Shown: positions 1 to 32,230 of the stretch, one piece after another
Numbering within the stretch: position 1 is the first letter of the stretch
Layout of the letters: each line of letters opens with the position of its first letter
DNA from: a virus
Virus record (IMG/VR): IMGVR_UViG_3300045003_000194
Span: 1 to 38,812 of that record
Strand: one strand, 5' to 3'
Length of the DNA stretch: 38,812 bases
The notes under the pieces: generated by a model
Database searches by the model: none
Told to the model about the DNA's origin: nothing
The model's input: only the letters and a program-made list of their open reading frames with translations
Position numbers and translations under genes: made by a program

Positions 1-127
1 TCCACCGGTTTGCGATTGGGTTTGGTTACCACCGACAACGATCGATATCGCCGGCCAAGCATTGCCATCCGGCCCGGTAGTCTCACCGCCCGGAGCTTCC
101 AGCAAAAATCCTTGGGAATTGAAATTG
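1..127. repeat. Terminal redundancy, left copy (circular contig overlap)
   Basis: These 127 bases are identical to the last 127 bases of the window. The length matches a common assembler k-mer, and the coding frame crosses the join intact, so this is the overlap of a circularised contig rather than a biological long terminal repeat. True unit length is 38,685 bp. Confidence 0.95.
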
Positions 128-1603: not shown

Positions 1604-3889
1604 TCACTGCAGCATAACCCCGATCGAGCGCCCAGCGGCTACCGCGCCTACCGGATTTAAAGTAAAGGTCGCCGTCACCGATGTGGTGGAATTCACCGTC
1701 ACCACGCATGTGCCATTGCCCGCACATCCACCCCCGCTCCAGCTGGTGAAGCTATAGCCAGAGCCCGCCGTCGCTGTAAGCGTGACCGAAGTGCCTTGAT
1801 TGAAGATGGCCGAACAGGTGGAGCCGCAGCTGATGCCCGTGGGCGCACTGGTGACCGAGCCCAGGCCCACTTCGATAACCGAAAACGTGTACTGAATTGT
1901 GTAAATACCCGTGACCGTGCTCCCGTCCAGCCAGCCGCTCTTGATGGAAATTGCTTTCAGCGTCTCCGATGCCGAGACGGTCACAGGCCCGCTGTAGAGC
2001 GTGCCATTGGTGCACGTGCCCGACCCGTTGCTCGCCGGTTGGCTGCCATCCGTGGTGTAGCAAGCGCCGACTCCTGCAATGGTGGTGATGGTGACGCTCT
2101 GTGCTCCCTGATACGTGCCCGGAGTTGGCGAGAGTGTAGGGCTGGGAGCCTGAAAGCTGTATGCCGCCGTGCCCACCGTCGAATCTGTATAGCCCGTGCC
2201 GCCCGCCACCGCGCTGAGTGTCAGGTCCACAGACACTGCAACTGGCGTGCTGTAGAGCGTGCCGTGCGCGCATCCGGTTGTGCCGTTCGTGCTCGGACTA
2301 GAGCCATCTGTCGTATAGCAAAGAATTGCGCCATTCGATGTCGTGGAAATGGCAATGTTCTGTGGTGCCGAGGATCCGTAATTGCCTGCCACCGGATTAA
2401 AAGTGGGTGTGTTCGCCGGCAGATTTCCGCCCCCGCCCCCCGTGAGAAGGATTGGAGCCAGGCCAACCGGCACCACTCCGCCGCTCACGTTATGCTGCAC
2501 TCCATCGAGCGTCGTGTATTTCGTGAAGCTGCCAGCGCTCTGATTGCTCACCGCCCCGCAGGTAGAAATCGTGGTGCCCGAGCAAGTGCCGGTCTTGTCG
2601 AACATGGCCAGGAAGCTTCCGCCCGTCGCCAGCGTTCCTGTGACGCTGTATACGTTGCCCACGTTTGTGTAGAGGTTGACCGTCGCCCCGATAAACCAGC
2701 CCGCCAGAATATTGTTGGCATCGCCCACGATCGACTGCGATGGCGGAAAAGATCCTTTATCCCACTGGTAGAAGTTTTCCTGTGCGATCGCCGGGCTGTT
2801 GAAGGAAACCATGAGCACGATTTCCGCGCCAAAGTATGCTGCCGCTGAGGCCACATTGGCTGGCACCGAGTTCTGTGTGTAACCCCATTCATCGTTCCAC
2901 AGCGGATAGGAGTTCAGGCTATCCGTGTTCATGACGCTCTGCGCTGCCTGCCAGGCATTGATGACGAGGCTTGGGTCGAGCGAGGTCTCGCCCTGCCCGC
3001 GCATGTGCTCATCCACGATATCGAAGGTCTGTGTGCCCGTGACCGTCTGCGCGCTCCAGGAGCAGGTTTTGCCGGAATAAGTTGCGCCCGCGGGCGGGGT
3101 GATGGTGATGTTGCGCGCCGGCGCGTTAATGGAGGTGATGTCAAACTGATGGAAGTAGCCCGAGCCCGTCATCGAGTTCACGTGGCCATCGAGTGACACC
3201 ACGCGCGAGGTCGGATCGATGCAGCGCGTGAGATTCTTCATGTCCCACGCCATCAGCACCAAGTTTTTCAGGCTGCCCGTCTGCCCTCCGCAAATCGCGC
3301 CCGTCGCCTTACACCAGAAGTTATTCGCGTCCGCCTCGTTCCACAGTGACCAGTACTTAATGTGTCCTTTGGTGTTGGCCCCACCGGAATAGCGAATGGC
3401 TAATTGCCCCACGTAATTCAGCCACCATGCATCCGCTCCTGTACCGTCGTAGTTCAGATCGTTCGGAGGTGCGCAGCCCGAGGGCCCCGGGTCGGTGCAG
3501 CCCGAAGGCGTGCCCGCCGCGGCAAATTCCGGCGTGGCCCCGAAAACGTAGATGCTGGGCATGGTGCAAGCGGGGTTCGCATCCACGCTGGTGCCGAGCA
3601 CCCAATCAAGTTTGGCGAAACTATAGCCCGTGGTATCGGTCGGAGACGCGGCCGAGAGTTCCACCTGATCCCACTTCACCCCGTCATCCCACAGCCGGTT
3701 GCTGTTAAACACCGCCTGCCCTTGCGTGAGTGTTTGCGGACACCAGGGATGCGGCTGGGTGGGATTCCCGTTCGGCGAAATCATGTTGGTGGAGGAGCCA
3801 AAGAAAGAAGCTGGCACCGTGTTGGTTTGCGCGCTTGCGCCGGCGCACGCCAGCAGAGCGAAGGCGAAAACACTTACTAGGCGCCGCAT
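1604..3889 (-). CDS. Exported clan GH-A-like glycoside hydrolase with CHB_HEX_C and InlB-like repeats
   Basis: Protein of 761 residues starting at the ATG in a TAATG overlap with the stop of the upstream gene. Residues 1-20 are a clear signal peptide ending ASA before QTN. The catalytic part (about 25-460) has the two hallmarks of a (beta/alpha)8 clan GH-A glycosidase: WNE near residue 185 (acid/base at the end of strand 4) and WNDEW near 334 (nucleophile at the end of strand 7), as in GH5/GH39-like enzymes. Two chitobiase C-terminal-like repeats follow (each with CYTTDGS and a TLYS...PV segment), then an InlB-type repeat containing TATAGSGYSFTSWSGGGC. I infer a secreted polysaccharide depolymerase or spike enzyme acting on host capsule or wall glycan. 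The substrate cannot be read from the sequence. Confidence 0.85.
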   Translation of the reverse strand: MRRLVSVFAFALLACAGASAQTNTVPASFFGSSTNMISPNGNPTQPHPWCPQTLTQGQAVFNSNRLWDDGVKWDQVELSAASPTDTTGYSFAKLDWVLGTSVDANPACTMPSIYVFGATPEFAAAGTPSGCTDPGPSGCAPPNDLNYDGTGADAWWLNYVGQLAIRYSGGANTKGHIKYWSLWNEADANNFWCKATGAICGGQTGSLKNLVLMAWDMKNLTRCIDPTSRVVSLDGHVNSMTGSGYFHQFDITSINAPARNITITPPAGATYSGKTCSWSAQTVTGTQTFDIVDEHMRGQGETSLDPSLVINAWQAAQSVMNTDSLNSYPLWNDEWGYTQNSVPANVASAAAYFGAEIVLMVSFNSPAIAQENFYQWDKGSFPPSQSIVGDANNILAGWFIGATVNLYTNVGNVYSVTGTLATGGSFLAMFDKTGTCSGTTISTCGAVSNQSAGSFTKYTTLDGVQHNVSGGVVPVGLAPILLTGGGGGNLPANTPTFNPVAGNYGSSAPQNIAISTTSNGAILCYTTDGSSPSTNGTTGCAHGTLYSTPVAVSVDLTLSAVAGGTGYTDSTVGTAAYSFQAPSPTLSPTPGTYQGAQSVTITTIAGVGACYTTDGSQPASNGSGTCTNGTLYSGPVTVSASETLKAISIKSGWLDGSTVTGIYTIQYTFSVIEVGLGSVTSAPTGISCGSTCSAIFNQGTSVTLTATAGSGYSFTSWSGGGCAGNGTCVVTVNSTTSVTATFTLNPVGAVAAGRSIGVMLQ

Positions 3890-6288
3890 TATTGCCACCT
3901 TCGGATCAAGGCCGAAACTTTCGCCGCTGTCGTGCCCCCGCCGACCCATTTGCCAGCAATCGCGGTAGCCGAGTTGTCCACATCGAACATGTAGCAGCCG
4001 GCATACTCGCCCGCGGCGCTTGTGGTAAAGGTCAGCGCCGGCGACGCAACCCCGAGTTGCGACAATGGCACCGCCTGATTGACTTGACTGACGCTATTTG
4101 AATTCTTGTAAGAGACGGTGAAGCCGATCACGCCGGAGGTTGCTGAGGAGACCGAAGCGTCATAACAAAATTCATAAGTAGCTGCCGTTGCTGCCGGCGT
4201 TAGAGATATCAGCGAACCATCCGCCGTGCCGGTTTCCGCTTTTTGCGAGGTTGCGGCCCGCGTATAGGTAAAGCCGAAAGCCGCTGTTGCTTCCCCATTC
4301 CACTTGTTAAAGAAGTTGTGCCCGGAATCGATGGTGATGTTGGCCGTGCTCGCCAATTGGTTCGCGCCATTGGCATACAAAAGATTCCCAGAGGCCAGCG
4401 AGCCACCCGTGTAGACCGTGCTCGACGTCGTGCCGAGGACCCATTCCGTGCCATCGTAAATCGCTTCATAGATTCCGCCCGCCGTGATGTCGCCCGAGGC
4501 TCCGAGTGCGGCCACGCCACCCGTGGTGCGCTTGTCGAGAGCGATCGCACCATAGGCCGATCCGCCGGCAGGTGTCACATTCAGAGTCGACGCACCGGAA
4601 GAGGCATTGCTCGCCTTGAAGCGAACTGTCAAGCCGGTTGCGATCGAACTAGGGAAGCCGTTGCAAGTGACCGCGTAGGCGTTCGCTGCTCCGGTGTCGG
4701 CCGCGTAGCACGTGATCCAGGTCGATGAGCCCGCATCCTTGATTCCACCATTGCCATCGCCGATGATGGCGTCGGCTGCCGTCGAAGCGCCTCCACTAGC
4801 TGTGAAGTACGCGGTGTCGGTGCCATACGCCGTGGTCACATTCGCCGGCGTGGAATTTTGCAGCGAGATGGCTCCACCCGCAGTAAGCGACAGTGGCCCA
4901 ACGGCTGAAAGCGCGCCGCCATTCGTGGTGGTAGCACAGGTGGTGCAGCCATAACTTGGTCCGGTAGCCGTTCGGCTGATGGTGATGGGAGAGGTGACGC
5001 CCGTCGCTTGCTCAGTCACGTCCGCGGCCCAGTTGTTCGCCGTCTTGGGATCAACAAAGAGGACCGCTTCTTGTCCTGCCTGCAAAACCAGTGTCGCTCC
5101 AGCGGTGCCGCCCGAACCTGCCGAAATCGTCCATGTGGTCGGAGTGATGGTGACTGTGTTTGTCGTGTTATTCGCCAGCTTGGTGGTGCAATTCGCAACC
5201 CCAAGCGTGCTGGGCGTAGGCAGAGTCACAGCAACTGCAGCCGCGCCCGTATAAACCACGCGCTGCGGGTTGCAATCCGTTGATGCAATCGTGTCGGTTG
5301 TTCCTGTGACCGAGCGTCCACTGATTCCCGGCAATAAAAATACCGGTGCCACTGCCGCGCCGCTGGCCGGAATGCTGGCAAGCACCTGTGGCACCCCATT
5401 CGGAGTCGTAGCCCCTGCCAGTCGCGTCGCCGCTCCCGCAGCCCCGCCATAGAGGACGTCGCCCAGTGTGGTCATGGGATTGGCGAATCCCGTAATGGAA
5501 AACATGGTCAGGCAGGGATTCGGAGCGCTTGCCGTGGTGTAGCCGTACGCAAATCCATTGGTCGGGCTGAAGCCATTGCAGGGCGGAACCGCGCCGAACA
5601 GGGCAACGTTGGGATTCGGATAAGTACCGGAGAGTCCGCCACCCGCACTGCCACTGGGCGCAGCCGTGACGCTATTGAAGGTTCCACCAAGCGTGATGGT
5701 GGTGCCATTGATGACCGTGGTGGCTGCATTGGCGATCGAGGAATTAGCCAGCGGAAACGTGATGCCGGTATCGGTGAGGCTGGTTCCCTTCGCATCGTTC
5801 CAGATGGCAATGTCGCCGATGGTGGTGCTGCCCGGCCCACTGACCGTTCCACTTCCACCGATAGTTGAGGTCAGGGAGAGCGCTGCCGCATTCAGGGTGG
5901 TGCTGATATCCTGCGAAGCGCTGCTGATCGTGACCCCGCTGACCGAAAAACAAATCGGCCCTTTGCCTAAACTGGGCTGCACCGTCGATCCGCCCGAGCA
6001 CACCGTGAAGCCCCACGTGGTGCTGTTCGGCGAGAGCAGCGTGTTGTCCGCCAGTTGCAGGGTGAACACGCCATTGATGTCGAGTCCGGCCGGTTGAATC
6101 GGCGGCGTATACGGCAGGCCATTGATGGTGGGAGTGGCCGAAGTGGTTAGCGTGGCCGAGATAGTGCCGAAGGAATAAGGCAGGCCGTGGGGATCTTTGA
6201 CCGTCCCTGTGACCTGAGTAAACTGCCCGAAAGCCACTGCGCTTGCAAAAAAGAGCGCCCACAAAACCAGTAGTTTCTTGCCCGCCAT
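3889..6288 (-). CDS. Large exported fibre/spike-like protein
   Basis: Protein of 799 residues. The ATG at 6288 has AGAGGA 8 bases upstream. A signal peptide (LLVLWALFFASAVAFG) precedes QFTQVTGTVKDPHGLPYSF, a module of about 130 residues shared with the protein that crosses the window edge (1-1188). The middle is a long Ser/Thr/Gly/Ala-rich beta-type region with repeats of the form GDVLYGG and GNLLYANGANQL, typical of phage fibre shafts. The last 130 residues look like a compact beta-sandwich tip (CYMFDVDNSATAIAGKWVGG). I infer a second receptor-binding fibre or spike. Its stop is overlapped by the start of the glycosidase gene, so the two are probably translated together. Confidence 0.85.
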   Translation of the reverse strand: MAGKKLLVLWALFFASAVAFGQFTQVTGTVKDPHGLPYSFGTISATLTTSATPTINGLPYTPPIQPAGLDINGVFTLQLADNTLLSPNSTTWGFTVCSGGSTVQPSLGKGPICFSVSGVTISSASQDISTTLNAAALSLTSTIGGSGTVSGPGSTTIGDIAIWNDAKGTSLTDTGITFPLANSSIANAATTVINGTTITLGGTFNSVTAAPSGSAGGGLSGTYPNPNVALFGAVPPCNGFSPTNGFAYGYTTASAPNPCLTMFSITGFANPMTTLGDVLYGGAAGAATRLAGATTPNGVPQVLASIPASGAAVAPVFLLPGISGRSVTGTTDTIASTDCNPQRVVYTGAAAVAVTLPTPSTLGVANCTTKLANNTTNTVTITPTTWTISAGSGGTAGATLVLQAGQEAVLFVDPKTANNWAADVTEQATGVTSPITISRTATGPSYGCTTCATTTNGGALSAVGPLSLTAGGAISLQNSTPANVTTAYGTDTAYFTASGGASTAADAIIGDGNGGIKDAGSSTWITCYAADTGAANAYAVTCNGFPSSIATGLTVRFKASNASSGASTLNVTPAGGSAYGAIALDKRTTGGVAALGASGDITAGGIYEAIYDGTEWVLGTTSSTVYTGGSLASGNLLYANGANQLASTANITIDSGHNFFNKWNGEATAAFGFTYTRAATSQKAETGTADGSLISLTPAATAATYEFCYDASVSSATSGVIGFTVSYKNSNSVSQVNQAVPLSQLGVASPALTFTTSAAGEYAGCYMFDVDNSATAIAGKWVGGGTTAAKVSALIRRWQ

Positions 6289-6315: not shown

Positions 6316-6774
6316 TTATCCAAAAAACTTGAGCAACGCCCACAGCGCCAGCCCGCCCACCGCGATCATGCTCAGCAAGCTGCCCGTATCCGGCGCACCC
6401 GCCGTCTGCTCAGGCGAAGCGCTTAAAACAGAATTCACCGCCTCAAGACTCGCTGAATAAATTCCACTCGTGAAGGTCGACCACGGAGAAAAACTGCTGC
6501 CTGCTGCGGAGTACACCGCGTAGGCAGCCGCGGCATTGGTCGCAGGGTCGAAAAGATTCTGTCCCTGAAATTCGGGATGCGCCTTGAGGTAAATCTGCCA
6601 CAGACCGAATGAGCCATAGCCCTGCGGCGCACCCGCTGCCGCTTCCGGGTTGTAGGCTTGCGGATTCCCGCCCGACTCGGCCAGCGCGATCGCCACCGCT
6701 GTGGCTAGATCACTGCCCGAGAAGCCAGCCGCGGAAGCCAGCGCCAGCAGTTGCGAGATGGAAAGCGCGCTCAT
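6316..6774 (-). CDS. Membrane-anchored lytic transglycosylase-like protein
   Basis: Protein of 152 residues, ATGA-coupled to the gene at 6771. The region AIALAESGGNP (Glu about residue 33) followed by GSFGLWQIY and LFDPATNAAAAY is the SLT/lysozyme-like fold pattern of soluble lytic transglycosylases, with the catalytic Glu, the GxxQI-type strand and the NAxxAY helix. Residues about 132-150 (LLSMIAVGGLALWALLKFF) form a C-terminal membrane segment. A small transglycosylase held in a membrane is what PRD1-type virions use to drill the peptidoglycan during entry (protein P7), so I infer a virion entry enzyme. An ordinary endolysin is the alternative, but the C-terminal anchor argues against it. 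Confidence 0.87.
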   Translation of the reverse strand: MSALSISQLLALASAAGFSGSDLATAVAIALAESGGNPQAYNPEAAAGAPQGYGSFGLWQIYLKAHPEFQGQNLFDPATNAAAAYAVYSAAGSSFSPWSTFTSGIYSASLEAVNSVLSASPEQTAGAPDTGSLLSMIAVGGLALWALLKFFG

Positions 6775-8648: not shown

Positions 8649-9455
8649 TCAAAACTGCGCATAACTCACCGAAATCGTAGCCGTGGCCGTGATGGCTCCC
8701 GTGGCCACGCACACCGCATGCCCCGTGGCCTGTGTGCGCGCCAGCGCGCCCAGCGTATTGCCAATGAATGGCAGAATTTGCGGCGTGGTCGAGAGCACCT
8801 GCAGCTGCCACAGGGTTTGCACCACGCTCGCGCAGCCCGCCGCCGTGCCCTCTTCTAAAACGACGGTGCCCGTCGTCGTGGCCGCGCCAAAGCTGATCGA
8901 CATTCCACAGATGTAAATATTGGCGCCAGCAAACACGCCCACCAGCGTGGTGGTGGTAGATTGCGCCGGCTGAATGATGATGGTTTTGTCGCACGCCACG
9001 GGCGAAGTCGGCCCATTGCTGCCGAGCGCCGCTGCCGCAAATTCAATGGGGGCAGCGACTGCCGTATACCAGGCGCTAATCGATCCCGCGCCGTAATTGC
9101 TGACTGCGACGCGCACGCCGTCGTAGTACCCGCCCGCCTGCAGCACATGGCATCCGGTATCGGTGACGCTATTTTGACCGTAGGACGCGGAGGCGATCGT
9201 GGTTGCATTGGAGAAGCTTCCGCCCGGGCCCGCCTGCAGGCTGATTGTGCCGCTGAATCCCGTGGTGCAGTAGGCCAGCAGATGCGTAGACTGCCCGAGG
9301 TTTTGCAGCACCGGGCTGTTCACGTTGGCGCTTTGGTTGGTAAATACGGTGACCGAGACCGTTTGATTGGCCACCGTGCCGAGAAACTGCGCCTGTGCTG
9401 CCATCGCACAAAGCAGCAAGCTTACGAGCGCCAGTTTTGTGCTTCTCACACCCAT
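8649..9455 (-). CDS. Exported beta-rich protein, possible virion decoration
   Basis: Protein of 268 residues. A signal peptide (LALVSLLLCAMAAQA) precedes QFLGTVANQTVSV. The mature part has two beta-sandwich-like halves, each with one or two Cys pairs that could form disulphides in the periplasm: about 25-140 with GSFSNATTIASASYG, and about 145-268 with VACDKTIIIQPAQSTTTT. It overlaps the capsid-like gene upstream by 10 bases, so it lies at the end of the capsid-like block. I infer a surface or spike protein. It has no enzyme motif. Confidence 0.75.
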   Translation of the reverse strand: MGVRSTKLALVSLLLCAMAAQAQFLGTVANQTVSVTVFTNQSANVNSPVLQNLGQSTHLLAYCTTGFSGTISLQAGPGGSFSNATTIASASYGQNSVTDTGCHVLQAGGYYDGVRVAVSNYGAGSISAWYTAVAAPIEFAAAALGSNGPTSPVACDKTIIIQPAQSTTTTLVGVFAGANIYICGMSISFGAATTTGTVVLEEGTAAGCASVVQTLWQLQVLSTTPQILPFIGNTLGALARTQATGHAVCVATGAITATATISVSYAQF

Positions 9456-9982
9456 AGATTGTCCGTCTCCATGTCGCGCGGATAGAGAAAGCCCACCAGT
9501 CGTCCGCCTGCTAGCTGCCCCGCCAGAGCCACCGCCACGTTTTTCACCACGATGGTGACCACTTGATTTTCGAAAATGCGGAAGCCCGCAATCTCCACCG
9601 GGTTCGAAGGGTTACCGAGCGAGGTCAGAATATTGTCGTAAGACGTCGCCCCCGGAGGTGGCGCGCCATCCACCAGAATCTGCCACACCACCGCGCCCGA
9701 ACCTTCCACCCATCCCCCGCCCACGAAATTATTGGCGATTTTTTTGATGATGCCGTGCCGGCCGAGCGGCACCTGAAATTGCACGATGTTCGCCTGCGCT
9801 GCGACCGCCGGCAGCGCTACGTAATTGGATTGGTCGAGATTCTCCCAGCGCTCCGGCGGCCACAGGTGAATCGGTAAACTCACCGGCTGAATCACCCGCG
9901 CCTGCGCTGGCTGGCTCGGAATGCCCGGCCCGCCGCCTGCCTGCCGTGCGATGCGCTGCGGAGTGATGACTTTAGAGCTCAT
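9446..9982 (-). CDS. Virion-protein candidate, beta-rich
   Basis: Protein of 178 residues with a proline-rich N-terminal arm (about 1-40) and a beta-rich core: QFQVPLGRHGIIKKIANNF, VVWQILVDG, RIFENQVVTIVVKNVAV, ending in RLVGFLYPRD. The pattern of short strands with a final GFLYP strand fits a jelly-roll or related beta-sandwich. The size is close to the small capsid protein of P23-77 (VP16, 173 residues), but this is a size argument only. It overlaps the preceding gene by 11 bases and the exported beta protein by 10. I infer a capsid or vertex protein. Confidence 0.65.
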   Translation of the reverse strand: MSSKVITPQRIARQAGGGPGIPSQPAQARVIQPVSLPIHLWPPERWENLDQSNYVALPAVAAQANIVQFQVPLGRHGIIKKIANNFVGGGWVEGSGAVVWQILVDGAPPPGATSYDNILTSLGNPSNPVEIAGFRIFENQVVTIVVKNVAVALAGQLAGGRLVGFLYPRDMETDNLWV

Positions 9983-10487
9983 TGGACAAGGTTCCTGTAA
10001 AGGGTGCGGACTGTCCGTACAGCGCGAGTTGCACCGTGTTGGCGACCGCTTCCAGGTTCTGCATCATGATCTGCATTTGCGACTTGGGCAAATCGAAACG
10101 GTAGGGCTCGCGCAAGAAAAACCAGGCCACCGGCCCCGGAGAATTTCCCCCACCCAGGTTGGGAAATTGAATGCCACGATCGTTCAATCGCCGCTGCTTC
10201 ACCAGGTCATAGAACTGTGCCCGGAATCCGCCCACGGTGTTCACACTGGCACTGCACCCGATCGCGAGCAGATGCCAGTCGCTCATCACATCCACTTTGA
10301 CGATGAGCGATTGCTGCGCCCCGATGACGCCGTTGACCACTTCCCAGCGCGGCTGATAGCCCGGCAGCCCAGGCGGCTCTTTTTCCGCCATGCGATAGAC
10401 GGAAGACTGCAGCGCCCGCAGGGGCAGCATGCGCGCCAGCGGATTCAAAAAGTCGGCGCGCAATGTCTTGATGTTGGCTTGCTGCAT
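9972..10487 (-). CDS. Virion-protein candidate
   Basis: Protein of 171 residues. The start at 10487 follows AAAGG by 5 bases; a longer frame to 10805 only shadows the next gene. It has a helical N-terminal half (TLRADFLNPLARMLPLRALQ), then strands, with FRAQFYDLVKQRRLNDRGIQ, VAWFFLREPYRFD and a final amphipathic stretch QIMMQNLEAVANTVQLALYG. It lies between two beta-rich proteins of similar size in the presumed capsid operon. Function inferred from place only. Confidence 0.6.
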   Translation of the reverse strand: MQQANIKTLRADFLNPLARMLPLRALQSSVYRMAEKEPPGLPGYQPRWEVVNGVIGAQQSLIVKVDVMSDWHLLAIGCSASVNTVGGFRAQFYDLVKQRRLNDRGIQFPNLGGGNSPGPVAWFFLREPYRFDLPKSQMQIMMQNLEAVANTVQLALYGQSAPFTGTLSNEL

Positions 10488-10498
10488 TGCGCCCTTTC

Positions 10499-10933
10499 TT
10501 AGTGCTTTGGTTTCGCCCAGAGCTTGAAGCCCGAGAAAACCACTTCCACCGTATTCGGCGCGCCCGATGTATCCGAAAACAGCAGCGTGTACGTGCGCGT
10601 CGCCGGCATAACAAAGGGAACACCCAGAGGCCACGCAGCTGCGGCTGCCGCAGTCCCCGCCCATAAGTCGATGTTGATGCCGTTGAAAGCGCCCGCCCCC
10701 GAAACTGCTGAAGCCGTCGTGCCGATAAAATCGCGCCCCGTGGCTGCTTCTTTCATGAGCACCTTGAGCAGGTTCGAGGTGCGCGAGGCTTTCAGCCACC
10801 ACCATTCGAAGTCGGCATCCGCCTGAATCTGGAATTGGTTCGGGTCTTGCACGGCGCTCGCCGGCACCACCCGATCGAGCACGTATTCGAAATACTGCCG
10901 CTCAAACTGATCGTCAACTTGAGTCGGGTCCAT
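10499..10933 (-). CDS. Virion-protein candidate, beta-sandwich
   Basis: Protein of 144 residues from the ATG at 10933, with AAAGTGAG 7 bases upstream; a GTG at 10945 is an alternative. Features include QIQADADFEWWWLKASRTS, a Gly/Ala loop, then PFVMPATRTYTLLFSDTSG and NTVEVVFSGFKLW. A final strand pair of the kind N-T-V-x-V-x-F-x-G-x-K suggests a beta-sandwich or jelly-roll structural protein. It is the first gene after the hairpin that follows the best major capsid candidate, which suggests lower expression than that gene. Confidence 0.62.
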   Translation of the reverse strand: MDPTQVDDQFERQYFEYVLDRVVPASAVQDPNQFQIQADADFEWWWLKASRTSNLLKVLMKEAATGRDFIGTTASAVSGAGAFNGINIDLWAGTAAAAAAWPLGVPFVMPATRTYTLLFSDTSGAPNTVEVVFSGFKLWAKPKH

Positions 10934-10965: not shown

Positions 10966-10989
10966 GAGCCGGAAATCTCGCCCCGGCTC
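10966..10989 (-). terminator. Intercistronic hairpin after capsid candidate
   Basis: Perfect 7-bp inverted repeat GAGCCGG/CCGGCTC with a 10-base loop in the 96-base gap after the stop of the gene at 11030. No clean T run follows on the minus strand (TTCTTT only), so it is more likely an attenuator or mRNA-stabilising stem than a full terminator. Confidence 0.45.
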
Positions 10990-11029: not shown

Positions 11030-11800
11030 TTACAGAATCGCGCGCATCAGTACACCTTCGAGGTACACATGGACGTTCAGTCCAGTGCCCACGAACTGCG
11101 TAGCCGGTGCCACCGCCAGCGTGGTGAATGCGGCCGATCCGGTAAGCGTCGGATCGAGCGTGACAAAAAAGTTTTGCTGCTGCTCGATCAGTTGCCCGAG
11201 AATCGGATCCATCGGCGGAAGCCCCGGAACTTGCGGAGCATCGTCCACGATGGTGTACGCATTGAGCGCATGCGGATATCCGTTTGCGCCCGCATTCGCC
11301 ATGGTGCCGCCCGCTGCCAGCGTCTGCGTGTCGGGATAGGTGCCAAAAGGCCCGCCCCCGGCCGGCAGCTTCGAAACCAGCGTGGTCGAATAATCCTTCC
11401 CGCTGATTTGCAGCTGCGCCAGCGTCTGCCCGATGAACGAAACCAGATCCTGTGGTGCCGCGTCCCCCCGCACAATGACGGAGATGACTTTGACCAGCAT
11501 CTTCTTGGGTGCATCGAGCATTCCCGGCTGCACCAGGTTGGTGTGGTACAAAGTCTTGATGAACGCCGCGCCGCCCGAAGGGGTATAACTGGCCCCGATG
11601 GGCTGAGCGAACAGGCTCTGCTTCGTCACCGCCGTCGCTACCGCGATCCCGTAGAAATCAAAAATGGGCTGCACCAAATACTCGAGTTGCCCGGCAATGA
11701 TGGGATTCTTGCGCAGCATCTCGAGCCGCGGCCGGCCCACTTCCCTCTCCGTGATTTCGCGGCAATGCGCGAAGCGTGATTGAAATCTTTTGTTGACCAT
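11030..11800 (-). CDS. Best candidate for major capsid protein
   Basis: Protein of 256 residues. The ATG at 11800 follows GGGAGG by 10 bases. The N-terminus is basic with a helix (FAHCREITEREVGRPRLEML), then ITERE..PIIAGQLEYLVQPI. The second half is beta-rich and ends with PATQFVGTGLNVHVYLEGVL, like the last strands of a viral jelly-roll. Supporting points are the size (P23-77 VP17 has 291 residues), a strong Shine-Dalgarno, a following intercistronic hairpin, and a place in the centre of the structural arm. I see no HK97-fold features and no scaffold or protease next to it. It could also be a minor virion protein; structure prediction would decide. Confidence 0.55.
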   Translation of the reverse strand: MVNKRFQSRFAHCREITEREVGRPRLEMLRKNPIIAGQLEYLVQPIFDFYGIAVATAVTKQSLFAQPIGASYTPSGGAAFIKTLYHTNLVQPGMLDAPKKMLVKVISVIVRGDAAPQDLVSFIGQTLAQLQISGKDYSTTLVSKLPAGGGPFGTYPDTQTLAAGGTMANAGANGYPHALNAYTIVDDAPQVPGLPPMDPILGQLIEQQQNFFVTLDPTLTGSAAFTTLAVAPATQFVGTGLNVHVYLEGVLMRAIL

Positions 11801-11889
11801 TTTTCTTTCGCCTCCCTTCAGGTCAGAATCCTTTCCTTCGCGAGCACCCTGCGAACCGCACCGCACGAGTGCCCGCTACCGCTTTGGAA

Positions 11890-12420
11890 CTAGAATCGCG
11901 TTTGGAAACGCGAGCGATAGCGCGAAACGCCCAGCCCGTGGACGCCTTTCACAGGCGCCGGCGGAAGCATGGGAATGACGCGCCCGTAAGCATCCGAGGC
12001 CGTGGGAACCGGGAACGCCGAATTTACGTAGAGTCCCAGCCCAGGCACCGCGACGCCCGCCTGCTTGACCGTCTTGATCAGCGCCGCCAGGATTCCGCCC
12101 TTGAGCACTTCTTCGCCCGCGGGTGCGCCGGCCACTGCTTTGCCCACGAAAGAGGCCGCAATCGCAGCCGCGACTGTCGCCGCGACATCCAGCCATCCCG
12201 ACTGCCCCAGGAAGCTGGCGCCAAAATTCGCGCCCGCCATGCCCGCTGCATTCCAGGCCACATCTTTCACCACGGAGCCACTGACCCCGAAGGGGTTGTG
12301 GCGCCGGCGATGATGCCGATGATGATGTCTCGCCATTGTGCTTTCACCTCCTTCTGAGCCGCGCCCCGCGAAATAGCTCCGCGGCGTGTAGCTCGGATTG
12401 AAAACCCGGATTTTCGCCAC
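11890..12420 (-). CDS. Arg/His-rich hydrophobic protein, membrane- and DNA-binding virion candidate
   Basis: Protein of 176 residues from a GTG at 12420 with GGAGG 6 bases upstream. A second in-frame ATG at 12336 has a near-perfect AGAAGGAGGTGA 8 bases upstream, so a shorter form of 148 residues starting MARHHHRHHRRRHNPF is likely made as well. The His/Arg cluster is strongly basic. It is followed by small-residue hydrophobic stretches (DVAATVAAAIAASFVGKAV and GGILAALIKTVKQAGVAVP) that look like glycine/alanine-zipper membrane segments. A basic head plus a membrane-embedding body suits a protein that links packaged DNA to an internal membrane, as proposed for P23-77 VP11. That role is inference. 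Confidence 0.75.
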   Translation of the reverse strand: MAKIRVFNPSYTPRSYFAGRGSEGGESTMARHHHRHHRRRHNPFGVSGSVVKDVAWNAAGMAGANFGASFLGQSGWLDVAATVAAAIAASFVGKAVAGAPAGEEVLKGGILAALIKTVKQAGVAVPGLGLYVNSAFPVPTASDAYGRVIPMLPPAPVKGVHGLGVSRYRSRFQTRF

Positions 12421-12441: not shown

Positions 12442-13155
12442 TTAGCCACCCAGCTGGAATCGTCCGCCGACGAAATACCCTTCCATCTGCTCTGGGTTCG
12501 AATCGTCCAGCAGCAAACTCAGATGCGTGCCCTCCGCATGGTTCACGCTGCCGCGAATGCGCCCGAATCCGCCTTGCGCCCCGCCCAGCATCACGTTCAT
12601 TTGCGCAATCGGGTGAATCACCCCGAACACATGCCCGTCGCGCGCCGTGATTTTGTCGCGCACCCGATCACCCACAATGGGGCAGCCCACCAAACTCTGC
12701 GCGATGCGTGGAGGCACGCAGCCTTTGCAGCCCGTCTTTACCGACTTGGGACAGGCGTGCTTCGCGTGCGCCGGAACCCAGCGCGGGTCAGGGATTGCCG
12801 GCAGTGGCGGAAGTCCGAAGGGCAGAAGCAAATCTTGCTGGTCGCGTGAAATCGCGAGAATTGGAGAAGCGTTGTAGCCCAGCCAGTCGAGCGTGATGGA
12901 CGCCCAGAGCAGCGCCTGTTTTTCGCTGAAGGGATGCAGGCCGGGTTGGTTGCGCAGCTCCGTCGCCTGTCGCGCATTCTGCCAACGTGTGCGCGACTGC
13001 GAGAGGCCCGCCGTGGACCGCTGCGCCTCAAACACCAGATTGGTCAATCGCCCGATGACGATGTAGTTTTTCTGCCGGATGGTCTCCTGCTGGATCTTGA
13101 TCCGGTCCGCCAGCTTGAACGTCGAAGGAACGATGACCGCTGCCGCTGTGCTCAT
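12442..13155 (-). CDS. Virion-protein candidate, family not recognised
   Basis: Protein of 237 residues, directly upstream of the Arg/His-rich protein gene. A short Ala/Val N-terminus leads to DRIKIQQETIRQKNYIVIGR and a helical region with RTRWQNARQATELR. A Cys-rich segment (HACPKSVKTGCKGCVPP) in the middle could bind a metal. The C-terminal part is Gly-rich with strands (MNVMLGGAQGGFGRIRG). It could be a second capsid-shell protein or an internal protein. No catalytic motif is seen. Confidence 0.6.
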   Translation of the reverse strand: MSTAAAVIVPSTFKLADRIKIQQETIRQKNYIVIGRLTNLVFEAQRSTAGLSQSRTRWQNARQATELRNQPGLHPFSEKQALLWASITLDWLGYNASPILAISRDQQDLLLPFGLPPLPAIPDPRWVPAHAKHACPKSVKTGCKGCVPPRIAQSLVGCPIVGDRVRDKITARDGHVFGVIHPIAQMNVMLGGAQGGFGRIRGSVNHAEGTHLSLLLDDSNPEQMEGYFVGGRFQLGG

Positions 13156-13234: not shown

Positions 13235-13573
13235 TCACATTACATCGAAAACAATCTCATCTCGATATCGCTGCATCAATTCGTCATAAGGCTGGGACCA
13301 ATCGAGGTCACGCGCTATCACTTGCCCCGGTAGCTTCAGATTTGCGCTCATGCACTGCTCGCAGCGCACGCGGAAATCATTCGGGCAATTGCTGATTCCG
13401 TCACGCTTCCAGGTTCCACCGCGCGTGCCGTGATCAGGATGAAGCGCAGGCTTTCCGCACACTGCGCAGAGATGGCCCAACTGACAAAGCGAGCCGAGCG
13501 GAACGCTCACAACCTCACCAATGAAGGCTGAGCCATCGGTACTCACGCACGTTATTTCATCGCCCTCTTTCAA
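13235..13573 (-). CDS. HNH-like zinc-binding protein
   Basis: Protein of 112 residues. It starts at a TTG that overlaps the stop of the preceding gene (TTGA) and has GGGG 8 bases upstream. The N-terminal 30 residues look like a small beta barrel (DEITCVSTDGSAFIGEVVSV). Then come LCAVCGKPALHPDHG and VRCEQCMSANLK: a CxxC pair, an HxxH and a second CxxC in the order of an HNH/recombination-endonuclease VII-like zinc fold. The Asn position is unclear, so nuclease activity is uncertain. Unusual among the structural genes. Confidence 0.7.
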   Translation of the reverse strand: MKEGDEITCVSTDGSAFIGEVVSVPLGSLCQLGHLCAVCGKPALHPDHGTRGGTWKRDGISNCPNDFRVRCEQCMSANLKLPGQVIARDLDWSQPYDELMQRYRDEIVFDVM

Positions 13574-14748
13574 TTGATGATCCCCGCTTCTTCAATCCGA
13601 TAATCCCCGCCTTCCAGCAGCAACCGTTTCACTCGCACATCAAAGAGCACGGTCGGCCGCTCCCCGTTCTCTTCCCCAAAGTCGTGCCGCCAGGAATCCG
13701 CCTCTGGATGCGGCACATGTTCTTTGCGCTGCCGGTAGTCAATTCTTCGAGCCTCGCCGAGTTCCCAGAGTCCCTCTCCACGATCTCGTGCTCCGAAGAG
13801 CGCGAGGCCCAAACTTACATCCTGATCGCCGCCCACGAAATACATCTGCCGCGCCGATTCATCCCCAACTAAGATGGTTCCACCCGAGGCTTGAATCTGC
13901 ATTATCTGCCCACCCTTCACCGGCTTCACGTAGAGAGCAAGTAGCGTGCCAAGCTTCGCGTAGTCGCCCGCGCGCATGTGCGGTTCACTCATCACCGCGA
14001 TGCGATCAACCGCCTTGCCCGTGAATGTTTCCCGCAGCGCTTCCGCCGAGGGATTCCCGCGCTTACCCCAGTTGTGCCGCGATGCCGGTCGCAGCGTCGC
14101 GCCCTGTGGCAGATGCGGCCCGCGATGCCCCGGCTTGCGCGTGCACTGATATCCGCCGATCCTCGCCCCGCAGATCTCCGCAGGGTTGATAGGTAAGCCG
14201 TCCGCATCGTATTTCTGCTCACCGTACAATTCATGGAACACGCGCGCCTGTCGTGAATGCTTACCTGCAGCCCGCGCGGATTTCCGCAGCCCGCCCAGGT
14301 ATTCGCGCTCCTCTTGCCGCTTGCGCCGCACCCCCGCGCGGAAGCTGCGCCGCGACTCTGCCAATTCTTTCTTTGTGGGCTTCGATGGAGAGAAGCCGAG
14401 AAAGCTACCCAGCGAGTTAGTGCGTGCTTCCGGGTTGGTGCGAATGGTCACCTCGCCGCCCGGAATGGGAATCTTGATTTCCTGTTCTTTCGATGGCGAC
14501 GGATTCGCGCCCAGCACAATCAGGTCGCTCGGGTTGTGTGCTGGCTTCACCACTTTCTTTTTGCGCCGCTTAATCGGATTGGTGCGCGGACTCATGACGA
14601 TGTAGCGGTATCCGTGCCGCGTGGGCGTGCCCCGGATGAATGCGCCTTTGGTCTTGCGCTCTTTCGCCACCGCATCTTTCTTTTCCGCGAAGGCCCCATG
14701 GAACATGTAGCCGTAGCCCTCGCCCGCGTTTTTGCGCTTGCGGCTCAT
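13570..14748 (-). CDS. Basic protein with repeated Asn-Pro motifs and conserved C-terminal domain
   Basis: Protein of 392 residues starting at the ATG at 14748. The N-terminal 170 residues are very basic and carry repeated NP motifs (RTNPIKRRKKK, AHNPSDL, GANPSPS, RTNPEARTN). A small Cys/His cluster follows (ICGARIGGYQCTRKPGH), then RGNPSAEALRETFTGKAVDR, and a C-terminal domain of about 150 residues with alternating strands (GGTILVGDESARQMYFVGG and a final GGDYRIEEAGIIN). I know similar NPSAEAL...FTG proteins only as uncharacterised phage genes. It is the first gene of its operon section and may bind DNA. Function unknown. Confidence 0.75.
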   Translation of the reverse strand: MSRKRKNAGEGYGYMFHGAFAEKKDAVAKERKTKGAFIRGTPTRHGYRYIVMSPRTNPIKRRKKKVVKPAHNPSDLIVLGANPSPSKEQEIKIPIPGGEVTIRTNPEARTNSLGSFLGFSPSKPTKKELAESRRSFRAGVRRKRQEEREYLGGLRKSARAAGKHSRQARVFHELYGEQKYDADGLPINPAEICGARIGGYQCTRKPGHRGPHLPQGATLRPASRHNWGKRGNPSAEALRETFTGKAVDRIAVMSEPHMRAGDYAKLGTLLALYVKPVKGGQIMQIQASGGTILVGDESARQMYFVGGDQDVSLGLALFGARDRGEGLWELGEARRIDYRQRKEHVPHPEADSWRHDFGEENGERPTVLFDVRVKRLLLEGGDYRIEEAGIIN

Positions 14749-15604: not shown

Positions 15605-16102
15605 TCATAGTACCTTTGCCAGTACCAATGCACCGCCACCGAGCAGGGCAAGCCAAAACCACATCGGCAAACCGAGCGGACTATTCGGCGAACCGGGCGT
15701 GTAAACCACATTCCCCGCGCCGTAATAGCTGGCAACATTGGCAGCAGCTGGACCTGCCTGCGCTGCCTGCTGATCCGCTGCCGCTTGTGCGGCATCTATA
15801 ACCGATTGCGGATAGCCCGCTGCTTTTGCATTCTCCACCACGCTCTGCGGCCCCGATGCAATCACGCTAGCTGCGCATGCCTGCCACTTCTGCGGATTGA
15901 AATAAAAATCCCACGTCGAGCAAACATCAGCAACGTCTGGTGCGATAGGCGACGGCAAACTCAGAGCCGTCTGCACGCTGGGCTGAGATGAAAGCCAGTT
16001 CGTCAGAAATCCGCCAGTTGGATCCGTGGCGAATTGCCCAAGTCTCTGCCTGCGCATCCCCGTGGGGATGTTATCGACCGACATGTAGCCAGCACCACTC
16101 AT
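15605..16102 (-). CDS. C-terminally membrane-anchored protein
   Basis: Protein of 165 residues, ATGA-coupled to the small membrane gene upstream. The N-terminal domain has two Cys (VADVCSTWDFYF, WQACAASV), followed by an Ala/Gln-rich helix (VIDAAQAAADQQAAQAG), and a C-terminal membrane segment (PMWFWLALLGGGALVLAKVL). It is the last of a run of proteins of the same design (soluble domain, Pro/Gly/Ser linker, C-terminal helix). I infer a protein of an internal virion membrane. Confidence 0.75.
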   Translation of the reverse strand: MSGAGYMSVDNIPTGMRRQRLGQFATDPTGGFLTNWLSSQPSVQTALSLPSPIAPDVADVCSTWDFYFNPQKWQACAASVIASGPQSVVENAKAAGYPQSVIDAAQAAADQQAAQAGPAAANVASYYGAGNVVYTPGSPNSPLGLPMWFWLALLGGGALVLAKVL

Positions 16103-16245
16103 GCAAAACTCACTGTATTCGGACGCACTCCAGACATCATCTGCACTAGCGGATTGTGCTCATCCCATGGCTGCTGAAATTCGTACGCAGTAAACGCATA
16201 CGCTCCAACTCCAAGCAAGAGCAAAATTAACAGTGTGTCACTCAT
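16099..16245 (-). CDS. Single-pass small membrane protein
   Basis: Protein of 48 residues. ATGA overlaps on both sides fix its limits, and a longer frame to 16836 is only the shadow of other genes. It starts MSDTLLILLLLGVGAYAFTA, one membrane helix at the very N-terminus, followed by a polar tail. The only anchored protein of this block with an N-terminal helix. Size and form suit a small integral virion-membrane protein. Confidence 0.72.
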   Translation of the reverse strand: MSDTLLILLLLGVGAYAFTAYEFQQPWDEHNPLVQMMSGVRPNTVSFA

Positions 16246-16580
16246 CGCCGTTTCGAAATCAAAAGCAAAAGTGCAGCCGCACCTAGCCACGGCAACGCTG
16301 CCGAAAACAAACTCAGGGAACCGGTCTGAATCGCTGGAAATGAACCCGCGCTCTGCCCCGGCGTTCCCGCTGGCACGGCGTTCCCGTCCGCATCCATCCA
16401 CACCACTGCGTTCGGGTCGTTGCACAGCACCGGATTCCCTTCGGAATCGGCTGCCGAGACACAGCCCCGGAACACATTCTGCGCACCCAGCCCGCGCAGC
16501 CCAAGCCCCGCCATTGCCTTCTCTGGGTTTGTGAAAGGCCGAAACCCTTGCTGTGGCCGCATGTAGTGCACGTTCGGCAT
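16242..16580 (-). CDS. C-terminally membrane-anchored protein
   Basis: Protein of 112 residues. The N-terminus is basic and aromatic with a TNPEKAM motif. The middle has Cys residues and VVWMDADGNAVPAG. The C-terminal helix (LFSAALPWLGAAALLLLISK) ends in KRR, so the tail is probably cytoplasmic or DNA-facing. Closely similar in design to its neighbours; the FSAALPWL start of the helix recurs in the transglutaminase-like protein at 18889-19785, suggesting shared ancestry of the anchors. Confidence 0.75.
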   Translation of the reverse strand: MPNVHYMRPQQGFRPFTNPEKAMAGLGLRGLGAQNVFRGCVSAADSEGNPVLCNDPNAVVWMDADGNAVPAGTPGQSAGSFPAIQTGSLSLFSAALPWLGAAALLLLISKRR

Positions 16581-16784
16581 CTACTCTTCCTTCCGGTACC
16601 GCTTCAAAATTCCTATCAGCGTGGTGCGCCCGATGGCCAGCCGCTTCGCCGCCTCGCTCACATTCCCTTGGCACAGAATCATCGCGCTCTCGATCGCCTT
16701 GCGCTCCACCACGTGCAACGGAGTCACCAGCAAGGGCGCGATGCGTTCCACTAGTTCCATCGGCGGACGTTGCAGTAAACTCAT
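16581..16784 (-). CDS. Fis-type helix-turn-helix DNA-binding protein
   Basis: Protein of 67 residues, start fixed by an ATGA overlap with the gene upstream at 16781. Residues about 22-65 match the Fis/NtrC C-terminal HTH (HTH_8): ERKAIESAMILCQGNVSEAA, then KRLAIGRTTLIGILKRY, with the conserved GN..eAA..L.I.r.TL pattern. It has no receiver or AAA+ domain, so it is a stand-alone DNA binder. Its place in the middle of the membrane-protein block suggests either a late-transcription regulator that feeds back on this operon or a DNA-condensing virion protein. The first is more likely. Confidence 0.85.
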   Translation of the reverse strand: MSLLQRPPMELVERIAPLLVTPLHVVERKAIESAMILCQGNVSEAAKRLAIGRTTLIGILKRYRKEE

Positions 16785-17296
16785 CGCCGCTTCCCTCCGC
16801 TCGCCAAGAGCGCGACCAGAAGCACGCCCCCGCCAATCACCAGCCAGGTCGGCATGCCCATCGTGGTGCCCGACAGCCACAAACCCATGGACGATGGCGA
16901 GAGGGGAACCGCCACGCGCGGCGAAGGCGAAGGTGCCGTTCCCGCACCCACCGCGGCTGAAATCACATTCGCCAGCGGCTGGAAATTTGGCACGCTCACC
17001 TTGGAGCCGGACTGTGCCGCTTCATTGCTTTGCAGCCACGCGATGTCGGAAGGCGTCGCCTGTGCTGTCGTGTCCGCTCCGCTCGGCAAGGGCGGCCCGA
17101 TGAATCCGCCACCCGAAGGCGGTAGCACATCGGTCGGAGTCCACGCGGGCTGCTGCCAGAATGGCAGGCTGCCCGCGTCCGGCGTCGTGGCAAACGGGTC
17201 ATAGCCCGAACTGAAGACATCGGTCATGCCGTCATCGCCCAGCCCATGCAGGCGCGGGCGGATGTACGGCCCGGAATAGACGGCCACGCGGCTCAT
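16781..17296 (-). CDS. C-terminally membrane-anchored protein
   Basis: Protein of 171 residues with an ATGA overlap to the gene upstream. It has an aromatic/Gly N-terminus (VYSGPYIRPRLHGLGDDG), a long Pro/Ser/Gly linker, and a C-terminal membrane helix (TWLVIGGGVLLVALLASG) ending GKRR. Same plan as the neighbours at 16242, 17475, 18368 and 18889. I infer a virion-membrane protein with its linker facing the capsid shell. Confidence 0.75.
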   Translation of the reverse strand: MSRVAVYSGPYIRPRLHGLGDDGMTDVFSSGYDPFATTPDAGSLPFWQQPAWTPTDVLPPSGGGFIGPPLPSGADTTAQATPSDIAWLQSNEAAQSGSKVSVPNFQPLANVISAAVGAGTAPSPSPRVAVPLSPSSMGLWLSGTTMGMPTWLVIGGGVLLVALLASGGKRR

Positions 17297-17478: not shown

Positions 17479-18371
17479 CGCAAAAACATCCAGGCCGCGA
17501 TCGCAGCCGCACCCAGCAAAAGCAAACTCGAAGAGCTTCCCCCGCCACCTAGCAGGGAACTGACCGTCCCCGAAACCGACGCAATCTTCGGCGGTGTGTA
17601 TGTGAGCGAATACCCCGAACGCAGGTTCGCTCCGTACTTCGATCCGTAGACCGTGCACACCTGAATCGTTCCCCCTTGGGGATTCGCAAAGACTTGCTGC
17701 GCCTGCAGCACGGTCGGATACAAATCTTGGCAGCCCACGCAGCACGTGGCCGTGCAACTTTTGTCGCACATGTGCCCGCCCGGAGTGCCGGTACAGGGCC
17801 CGCCCGGATTCAATTGCCCATTGCCGCAATTCGCGCCGCCATTCGAAGCATCCGCCGCGCCTGGCGCGCGCGTGTAGGGAGCCATCTCCGCGAAAAACTG
17901 CTGCAATAAAAGCTGGCACTGCTGTGCCGCTTGCGTCCCCGTGATGTTCTGGCTGGGATCCGAAGAATTCGCCGCCGCGAAAATCGCCTTGATGCCCGCA
18001 TCGAACGCTTGCACCGCCGAATTGATGGCCTGATTCTCTTGCGTGGCCCCTTTGACCCGCGCTTCGTGCGCCGACCACAATCCGCCGATGATGCCCACTA
18101 GAATTGCAATGCCCGCGCCGATGCCCGCCGTGAGCGCGCCCGCCGCCATTCCTGTGGCTCCGGTTGCGGAAACCGCTGCTGAAGCTGCGAACGGTGTGCC
18201 CACTTGTGCGCCGGCAGAAACCAGAGGCGTGATGTTGGTCGCGCCCAGCCATCCCAGTTGATGCAGCGGAATTTTCGGCGCGCGCGCGTAGTGGCCGAAG
18301 CGCGGCGCATGCGTCATTCCGCGCCAGCCTTGCTGGTAGAGCGGCACCGAGGGTAGAGCCACGCTGCTCAT
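17475..18371 (-). CDS. Cys-rich protein with two membrane segments
   Basis: Protein of 298 residues; the ATG at 18371 overlaps the preceding stop (ATGA), and the longer frame to 18773 is a shadow. The N-terminus has YQQGWRGM and LHQLGWLG repeats. A Gly/Ala-rich membrane stretch follows (about 60-90, GALTAGIGAGIAILVGIIGG), then a helical domain, a Cys-rich segment (GHMCDKSCTATCCVGCQDLY), and a C-terminal helix (SSLLLLGAAAIAAWMFLR). The Cys cluster could form disulphides in the periplasm or bind metal. I infer a virion-membrane or membrane-tube protein, the largest of the block together with its neighbour at 18889-19785. Confidence 0.75.
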   Translation of the reverse strand: MSSVALPSVPLYQQGWRGMTHAPRFGHYARAPKIPLHQLGWLGATNITPLVSAGAQVGTPFAASAAVSATGATGMAAGALTAGIGAGIAILVGIIGGLWSAHEARVKGATQENQAINSAVQAFDAGIKAIFAAANSSDPSQNITGTQAAQQCQLLLQQFFAEMAPYTRAPGAADASNGGANCGNGQLNPGGPCTGTPGGHMCDKSCTATCCVGCQDLYPTVLQAQQVFANPQGGTIQVCTVYGSKYGANLRSGYSLTYTPPKIASVSGTVSSLLGGGGSSSSLLLLGAAAIAAWMFLR

Positions 18372-18892
18372 CGCTTCCCCTTGAACATCCACAGCAGCGC
18401 GAACGCCGCCGCCCCCGCGATGCCCCAGTTGGGAATTCCTGCAATCAGCGTCTGCTCGGAAAGCCACGCGCCGAATCCGCTGGCCACGTTGACGCTGTTG
18501 CCCGCTGAATCGAGCACCGTCCCCGGTTGTGTCAGCTGGGGCGCCGTCTGATCCGCGCCTACGGCCACGCTCGGGGAGGGCTGCGGCGCGCCAGGCGTGC
18601 CGCCCGGAGCCGACACAACCGAGCCTGAAGATGGGCCGAGCGGAGGCGGCTGGGGGACCGTCGCTGTCGCGCCCGGATAGTTGCGCCAAATCGGAACGGG
18701 CATCACCGGAATCGGCTCCACAATGGGGAAAGGCCAGCGCACCGGAGGAGCGCCACAGCCCCACGCCGGACATGGCATCATGCCCTCGCCCGTGATGGTC
18801 GCTGCCCCGAGCCGCACCATGTGCGCTTTTCCATCAGTCAGCGTGCGCGGCGCAATTTCCCACGGCGCGCGATACACATATCGGCCGCTCAT
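18368..18892 (-). CDS. C-terminally membrane-anchored Pro-rich protein
   Basis: Protein of 174 residues, ATGA-coupled to both neighbours. N-terminal MSGRYVYRAPWEIAPRTL, a Pro-rich stretch (FPIVEPIPVMPVPIWRNYPG), a Ser/Gly/Pro linker, and a C-terminal helix (NWGIAGAAAFALLWMF) ending KGKR. The Pro-rich arm could extend through a capsid shell. Part of the anchored-protein block. Confidence 0.75.
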   Translation of the reverse strand: MSGRYVYRAPWEIAPRTLTDGKAHMVRLGAATITGEGMMPCPAWGCGAPPVRWPFPIVEPIPVMPVPIWRNYPGATATVPQPPPLGPSSGSVVSAPGGTPGAPQPSPSVAVGADQTAPQLTQPGTVLDSAGNSVNVASGFGAWLSEQTLIAGIPNWGIAGAAAFALLWMFKGKR

Positions 18893-19785
18893 CGCTTCAC
18901 CGCCACTAAAACCAATCCGCCAATCAGCAGCCAGGGCAATGCCGACGAAAACAGGGAACTGGAAATGGCATTCAATCCCCCATAGCCCGCCGCTGGCACC
19001 GCGTACCCGGGAGTGTAGGGAGTCATGAACGAGGCATAAGGGCTGCCGGTGGAAACTGTGGCCCCCGATGGCAGCCGCATCGCTGTGGGTTGCCCTGAAA
19101 CCGTGGCGATAATTCCCGGAATCTCTTGAATGCTTTGCGAGAGGATCGCATTCGCATCGATGCCTGAACCGTCATCGCCGAGCGAGCCCATGCTCAGATA
19201 CCCGGAGAGCCCCTGCAGCCGCGTGCACCCATTCATGTCCTGATAGGTGCCATCGGTGAGCGACCACACCCGCTTGCGGAAATAAACCGGAGGCTGTAAA
19301 CCGAATTGCGAATTTGGCCGCGCCGCATCGACCGCCACCCAGCGCCCCGAGCCTGCCGGCACTTCCACTTCCGTGTACACGTGCGAGAAATCGTTGGGAT
19401 AGTCGGGCTGCGCTGCCACCGTCACCAGACGCGCCGGATAACCCAGCGCGATCGCCAGCGCACCCATGAGCATGGCGATGTCGTCGCAGTCCCCCGCCCG
19501 CTTTTTCAGTAGCTCCAAGGGAGGCGTGAGCAATTCCTTGGTAACCGGGTCTTTGGTGTACCGGATATGCCCCTGCACCCACTGAAACAGGGAAAAAACT
19601 TCCCCGTAATCGTCATAAGCGGGAATATGCCGTACCAATTCGACCGAAAACCGGATGAATTGGGGATCATTCAGGGCTTGATCGATCAGCTTGCGCATCA
19701 GCCGCACGGTTTGTGCTGTGCCCGCATCGCCGTCGAGAAGGGGTGCGCGATAGCCGAGTAAGTTACCCGCGTGCTGAAGCCGCAA
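18889..19785 (-). CDS. Transglutaminase-like protein with C-terminal membrane anchor
   Basis: Protein of 298 residues starting at a TTG with AGAGAGG 8 bases upstream. Residues about 25-160 form a transglutaminase-like cysteine-protease fold with the full triad in order: Cys100 in KKRAGDCDDIAML, His135 in DFSHVYTEVEV and Asp153 in WVAVDAA. A linker follows, then a C-terminal helix from about 276 (FSSALPWLLIGGLVLVAVKR). The enzyme could cleave or cross-link peptide bonds in virion proteins or in the host wall peptide. It is the first gene of the minus arm, next to the divergent regulatory gap. A membrane-tethered enzyme of this type is unusual in a phage. Confidence 0.85.
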   Translation of the reverse strand: MRLQHAGNLLGYRAPLLDGDAGTAQTVRLMRKLIDQALNDPQFIRFSVELVRHIPAYDDYGEVFSLFQWVQGHIRYTKDPVTKELLTPPLELLKKRAGDCDDIAMLMGALAIALGYPARLVTVAAQPDYPNDFSHVYTEVEVPAGSGRWVAVDAARPNSQFGLQPPVYFRKRVWSLTDGTYQDMNGCTRLQGLSGYLSMGSLGDDGSGIDANAILSQSIQEIPGIIATVSGQPTAMRLPSGATVSTGSPYASFMTPYTPGYAVPAAGYGGLNAISSSLFSSALPWLLIGGLVLVAVKR

Positions 19786-32153: not shown

Positions 32154-32230
32154 CAGCGCTAACCCCCCGCTTTCAAAGGGTAGCAAAACCGGAACTGTAC
32201 GCAAAAGAGCCACTTTAAGAACAGTTTTTT

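Follow-up and report, generated by a model that had tools for sequence, protein, structure and literature searches.

p256, a candidate single-jelly-roll major capsid protein in viruses of soil Acidobacteria distantly linked to phage SSIP-1

The 256-aa protein p256, encoded in an IMG/VR virus record that was analysed over its entire length of 38,812 nucleotides (hereafter, the window), is probably the main shell protein of tailless viruses of soil Acidobacteria, distantly linked to the known salt-lake phage SSIP-1. That p256 serves as a major capsid protein with a single jelly-roll is well supported by its context and weakly by its fold, and the proposed capsid role derives from the fixed position of the gene in 23 of 23 loci, the links to virion proteins of SSIP-1 and a jelly-roll model of the protein. 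Only a handful of viruses with upright single jelly-rolls have been isolated, most of them from extreme environments; they bear on the origin of double-jelly-roll shells. If the reading is correct, a rare kind of virus shell would extend to a common soil phylum, the Acidobacteriota, and this diverse lineage would yield new capsid sequences, hosts from ordinary soil and partners for SSIP-1. Searches of the open literature returned no such virus from Acidobacteriota, although subscription papers may differ.

The p256 gene and its conserved surroundings

The assignment of p256 (11030..11800, minus strand) as a candidate single-jelly-roll major capsid protein draws on the ORF call, family alignments, a structural model and fold matches. 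Its frame runs from an ATG at 11800 down to 11030, is far beyond chance and shows 62–91% identity in the first relatives. The strong ribosome site described in an earlier note on this DNA is confirmed by direct reading as the purine-rich AAGGGAGG (11811..11818, minus strand), with the ATG located 10 nt further on. The same note proposed an intercistronic stem behind the gene; a 9-bp hairpin does exist between the p256 gene and the next one (10966..10989, minus strand), but the folding of this region is no better than chance (z -0.94, with 36 of 200 shuffles at least as good). In contig IMGVR_UViG_3300032160_001545 (L010:8290-8340), the capsid candidate contains an in-frame stop near codon 16.

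Gene order was tabulated with iterated profiles for 23 loci, comprising 15 virus records, L125, L138 and six loci from Terriglobia. In every one of them, the p256 homologue has the basic hydrophobic protein p154 on one side and p144/p171 on the other, all on the same strand; since all loci were picked for carrying the p256 family, these counts gauge the order of the genes and not their prevalence. The p178 gene comes next in 21 of the 23 loci, all but G030 and the fragment G772, where it was not detected, and a transglutaminase gene lies upstream in 21 as well, being missing from the fragments G765 and G772. Outside this table stand fragments of 3.0 and 3.7 kb, L163 and L168: the p144 homologue adjoins p256 in L163, while L168 carries p256 without any other core gene.

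In the window, p256 is preceded by p154, a 148-aa protein with a very basic start and a hydrophobic stretch (11890..12336, minus strand), and by p237, a core gene product of 237 aa with no assigned role (12442..13155, minus strand). The neighbours of 144, 171 and 178 aa listed in the earlier note are all present on the strand of p256, namely the small beta-rich protein p144 (10499..10933), its paralogue p171 (9972..10487) and p178, whose C-terminal 110 aa or so form a conserved domain (9446..9982). A 268-aa protein, recognized by synteny, follows p178 (8649..9455, minus strand).

Hydrophobic C-terminal segments are found in an SLT-type lysozyme-like protein identified with Pfam (6316..6774) and in proteins of 165 aa (15605..16102), 112 aa (16242..16580), 171 aa (distinct from p171; 16781..17296) and 174 aa (18368..18892), all encoded on the minus strand. 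As judged from the sequences, the hydrophobic ends of several window proteins fit an internal membrane without showing one. A partly conserved fibre-like protein of 799 aa (3889..6288, minus strand) has no match in Pfam or PHROGs. Moreover, two pairs of direct repeats, 72–77% identical (window 721-939 and 5869-6087), seem to mark the starts of paralogous fibre-like genes.

Predicted fold of p256

Sequence searches with p256 gave no match in Pfam or PHROGs, and only weak, scattered matches were obtained for 24 family members against Pfam and for eight distant members against PHROGs. No PDB sequence was matched significantly by profiles, among them a deep one for p256, and tblastn gave no match either in a phage collection, queried with p256 plus three remote members of its family, or in a plasmid collection queried with p256. 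The earlier note regarded a good match to VP17-like proteins as supportive of its proposal. However, profile comparison with P23-77 VP17 was empty, VP17 being a two-barrel protein according to the accessible part of PMC4958249, and hhalign returned probabilities below 1% for each of P23-77 VP16 and VP17 and HHIV-2 VP7 and VP4. As homology to these four proteins was not found, p256 was not filed in Helvetiavirae. Values below 3% were obtained for the FLiP major capsid protein and for SSIP-1 gp45 and gp46, the best hhalign result for the latter pair being 2.6% over 19 columns. Thus, kinship to VP17 falls away from the proposed single-jelly-roll capsid role, which retains the gene context, the virion proteins in common with SSIP-1 and a low-confidence model.

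This model was built with AlphaFold from 26 sequences of clades A–C and reached a mean pLDDT of 51 and a pTM of 0.46; a first one from seven close sequences had failed (pLDDT 29). It contains eleven strands in jelly-roll order (residues 42-54, 61-65, 79-83, 100-110, 127-132, 135-141, 151-157, 167-172, 203-206, 211-216 and 241-253), one helix (116-122) and a disordered-looking start, and at this low confidence one jelly-roll would span residues 42-253. The segment VHVYLEGVL, described previously as strand-like, forms part of the last strand. The start of the protein, which the earlier note called helical and basic, is indeed basic (9 K/R against 4 D/E among residues 1–31), but a clear helix is not predicted there, only two turns of three residues at low confidence; similarly, the second half holds strands as stated, but these are not confined to it, since they begin at residue 42. 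The p256 model fits a single jelly-roll, short of proof.

Structural comparison of the model yielded no match at E 0.001 or better in the PDB and a viral library. The top Foldseek match in the PDB was Sulfolobus polyhedral virus 1 (SPV1), chain 6oj0_A (prob 0.89, E 0.059), and the best in the viral library was an unnamed protein of 518 aa (E 0.0015). With VIA-align, none of 989 chains attained Z 8, below which the tool warns of common arrangements. Ranks 1–9 were occupied by bromovirus coat proteins and SPV1 (Z 6.1–6.5, 114–134 residues, 3.8–4.7 Å), and 24 of 50 rows among the matches listed bore titles of viral capsid proteins, coat proteins or capsid-decorating proteins. Several beta-sandwich domains of non-viral origin (4-1BBL, nucleoplasmin-type, CUB and GOLD) scored Z 5.0–5.7, which, together with the low confidence of the model, leaves room for p256 being a non-capsid beta-sandwich, such as a spike or an internal protein, whose likeness to a jelly-roll would be due to chance. 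We consider this quite improbable, because the nine first ranks are all viral coat proteins and the fixed place of the gene in the 23 loci is easier to reconcile with a core shell gene than with a spike.

Virion proteins in common with SSIP-1 and DNA packaging

Iterated profiles of 18 window proteins were compared with the 1056 ORFs of SSIP-1, P23-77, IN93, HHIV-2 and FLiP, yielding five matches. Three of them fall on SSIP-1, pairing the window transglutaminase with gp34 (E 2.8e-29) and both p144 (E 5.9e-4) and p171 (E 7e-4) with gp47. Both gp34 and gp47 are structural proteins by the GenBank annotation of SSIP-1, and in a shuffle control of 50 database copies none of 52,800 sequences attained the observed gp34/gp47 scores. 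The fifth match, of the 171-aa protein with a hydrophobic tail to a FLiP protein (E 0.0011), was taken as composition-driven.

The window homologue of gp34 is a transglutaminase-fold protein with a C-terminal membrane anchor (18889..19785, minus strand; Pfam and profile), possibly a cell-wall or cross-linking enzyme of the virion. The transglutaminase core is widespread according to Pfam and, thus, the gp34 match alone is no proof of kinship; more weight is carried by the C-terminal hydrophobic anchors, which are of like kind in both proteins, and by the company of the gene. The phage collection gave no tblastn match to the window transglutaminase, and SSIP-1 itself was without companions there, save for two partial gp34 matches. 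A further likeness concerns a 392-aa protein with an NPSDLIVLGANPS motif (13570..14748, minus strand), of a kind also present in SSIP-1 gp44: within the lineage, the motif NPAEL..NPS occurs only in this gene family and, in SSIP-1, once, in gp44, the motif having been picked after it was sighted. In SSIP-1, gp44 adjoins the paralogous pair gp45/gp46, and the p256 gene likewise comes after a basic membrane-like protein. On these comparisons, the lineage has virion proteins in common with SSIP-1, as expected of an SSIP-1-like group.

The small neighbours of p256 are possible partner shell proteins, p144 and p171 being, by sequence, kin to each other and to gp47. Two p144/p171-type proteins of 348 and 295 aa are encoded in the provirus-like locus of G030 (L154, 2716-3762 and 3775-4662, plus strand) and apparently consist of a tandem pair of domains, like gp47. 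Profile searches of PDB sequences with p144, p171, p178 and a joint p144/p171 alignment gave no significant match. The p178 profile matched P23-77 VP16 at E 0.0022 among the 1056 ORFs, but a search of PDB sequences with a cut-off as loose as E 10 failed to recover this resemblance, which is thus counted as a hint only.

These neighbours raise the alternative that, in the same kind of virus, p256 is a penton or minor jelly-roll protein, while the bulk of the shell comes from p144, p171 or p178. A single barrel bearing an N-terminal helix forms the penton of HCIV-1 too, as described in the accessible part of PMC6414509, the HHIV-2 chain 6h82_b appears among the VIA-align matches of the p256 model (Z 5.6), and the conservation of p144 equals or exceeds that of p256 among the more distant members of clade A; the faint p178–VP16 match points the same way, as far as its failure against the PDB sequences allows. 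However, p144 and p171 match gp47 and not gp45/gp46, whose place after gp44 in SSIP-1 is the one that p256 holds after its basic membrane-like protein. We therefore regard a penton or minor role as unlikely, and p256 as the better candidate for the main shell protein. No second p256 paralogue was found in the window. At a distance from the capsid module, a second, divergent p256 homologue is present in the clade-B records G011 and G012 only (L101:6905-7528 and L106:9190-10149, minus strand), which would suit a separate penton.

The candidate packaging ATPase is a P-loop protein (GQTQRAGKTT; 36107..37330, plus strand) that is kept in all 15 whole virus records and has no Pfam match below E 0.05. 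The window also encodes a HerA-like ATPase (27654-29684, plus strand), for which the protein at 27882-29681 hits a PHROG carrying the name terminase large subunit (E 3.4e-11). Together with the fibre-like genes and the weak matches of a 354-aa hydrophobic protein to PHROGs named tape measure (E 0.0035 and 0.0053), it could suggest a tailed phage, or a defective element derived from one, in which p256 would be a head-decoration or tail-associated beta protein. Such an origin is very improbable: a PHROG scan of 24 window proteins gave no portal, HK97-type capsid or tail-tube match, and virion proteins are held in common with the tailless SSIP-1. Moreover, in contrast to the P-loop ATPase, the HerA-like gene was detected by tblastn in only two of eight clade-A relatives and, hence, is probably not the packaging motor. 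Elsewhere in the window (32734-35379, plus strand), an 881-aa protein fuses an SNF2-type helicase to an N6/N4 DNA methylase; a relative with 69% identity is encoded in G003, and the clade-B record G009 has a comparable frame of 868 aa.

Relatives, hosts and known single-jelly-roll viruses

About 30 IMG/VR contigs share the gene order of the window. A single-sequence scan of IMG/VR gave seven loci and profile scans gave 15, 15 and 28, in overlapping sets. Clade A members show 62–91% identity to the window p256. For clade B, first reached via p144 and locus L068, the figure is about 40%, and for clade C, with L125 and L138, it is about 42%; L138 is a 34.7-kb contig from a Terriglobia MAG. With a growing profile, the p256 family was found in Acidobacteriota genomes at the level of class (4 of 399), phylum (2 of 396), order (7 of 347 and 2 of 95) and one family (5 of 348, one doubtful), all of these sets overlapping. 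The family is credible in nine different genomes (G016, G030, G159, G320, G765, G772, G776, G909 and G947); the match in G858, located inside a 1244-aa frame (E 3.8e-4), was set aside as doubtful.

The virus records span 33–39 kb and are far exceeded by the p256-bearing contigs of 77–497 kb in four Acidobacteriota genomes, a difference in size from which proviruses are inferred in these four; the relatives in Terriglobia are apparent proviruses. Near the four provirus loci, no tRNA genes as integration sites were found in eight stretches. The window itself encodes a tyrosine recombinase (31548-32213, minus strand; Pfam Phage_integrase, E 6e-36), for which phmmer detected no counterpart in the other loci laid out. 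The ends of the window (1-127 and 38686-38812) carry 127 identical bases. Since exactly this length recurs at the ends of nine of the 15 records, the window included, it seems to reflect the word length of the assembler and, hence, a circular assembly, and its reading as a biological repeat was dropped.

In the virion envisaged here, the core of p256, from about residue 40 to 256, would fold as one jelly-roll, and several upright copies would assemble into each (pseudo)hexameric capsomer of a shell enclosing a membrane vesicle. This vesicle would carry many tail-anchored proteins, including the membrane-anchored transglutaminase, whereas the basic first 30–40 residues of p256 may face inward to the membrane or the DNA. 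The proteins p144, p171 and p178 could be minor components of the shell, pentons or proteins of the spike base, or else the small partner in the capsomer, and DNA would be packaged by the P-loop ATPase. As a tentative extension, which we hold possible but do not favour, these viruses of Acidobacteriota may form a family or order of their own among those with upright single jelly-rolls, occurring both free and as proviruses, with homohexamers of p256 as in SPV1 and small barrels of the p144/p171 type at vertices or spikes. If true, a separate Acidobacteriota lineage would join SSIP-1 with the single-jelly-roll archaeal viruses.

Known systems offer partial parallels, the viruses with vertical single jelly-rolls and an internal membrane comprising SSIP-1, Sphaerolipoviridae, Matshushitaviridae and Portogloboviridae. 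SSIP-1 is a membrane-containing tailless phage with a PRD1-type architecture, two types of capsid protein and T=49, according to the available parts of PMC6356626, PMC6260650, PMC4958249 and PMC5332951. It resembles the window in its circular dsDNA, the anchored transglutaminase of the gp34 type, the kinship of gp47 to p144/p171 and the NPAEL–NPS motif. However, it differs in that gp45/gp46 have no detectable link to p256, its ATPase gp40 is unmatched by the ATPase profile of the lineage, it has no match to p178, p237 or p268, and its host belongs to a different phylum. In SPV1 (Portogloboviridae), VP4 alone forms the hexamers and VP10 the pentamers around a lipid layer, as far as the accessible text of PMC8459092 states. 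This virus provides the best Foldseek PDB match and shares circular dsDNA and, as proposed here, the single jelly-roll and an inner lipid layer, but it is archaeal, has a genome of about 20 kb and shows neither a PDB sequence match to p256 nor a significant structural one. HHIV-2, in turn, builds towers from two capsid proteins and its penton from a third barrel, according to the part of PMC6414509 already cited; with the Thermus phage P23-77, it shares with the lineage an upright single-barrel shell (here a working model), an ATPase and membrane proteins, while differing in the capsid profiles, where p256 is unmatched and p178 faintly recalls VP16. With one p256 gene, no paralogue of it and three small proteins, the window genome would suit either the SPV1 or the HHIV-2 plan.
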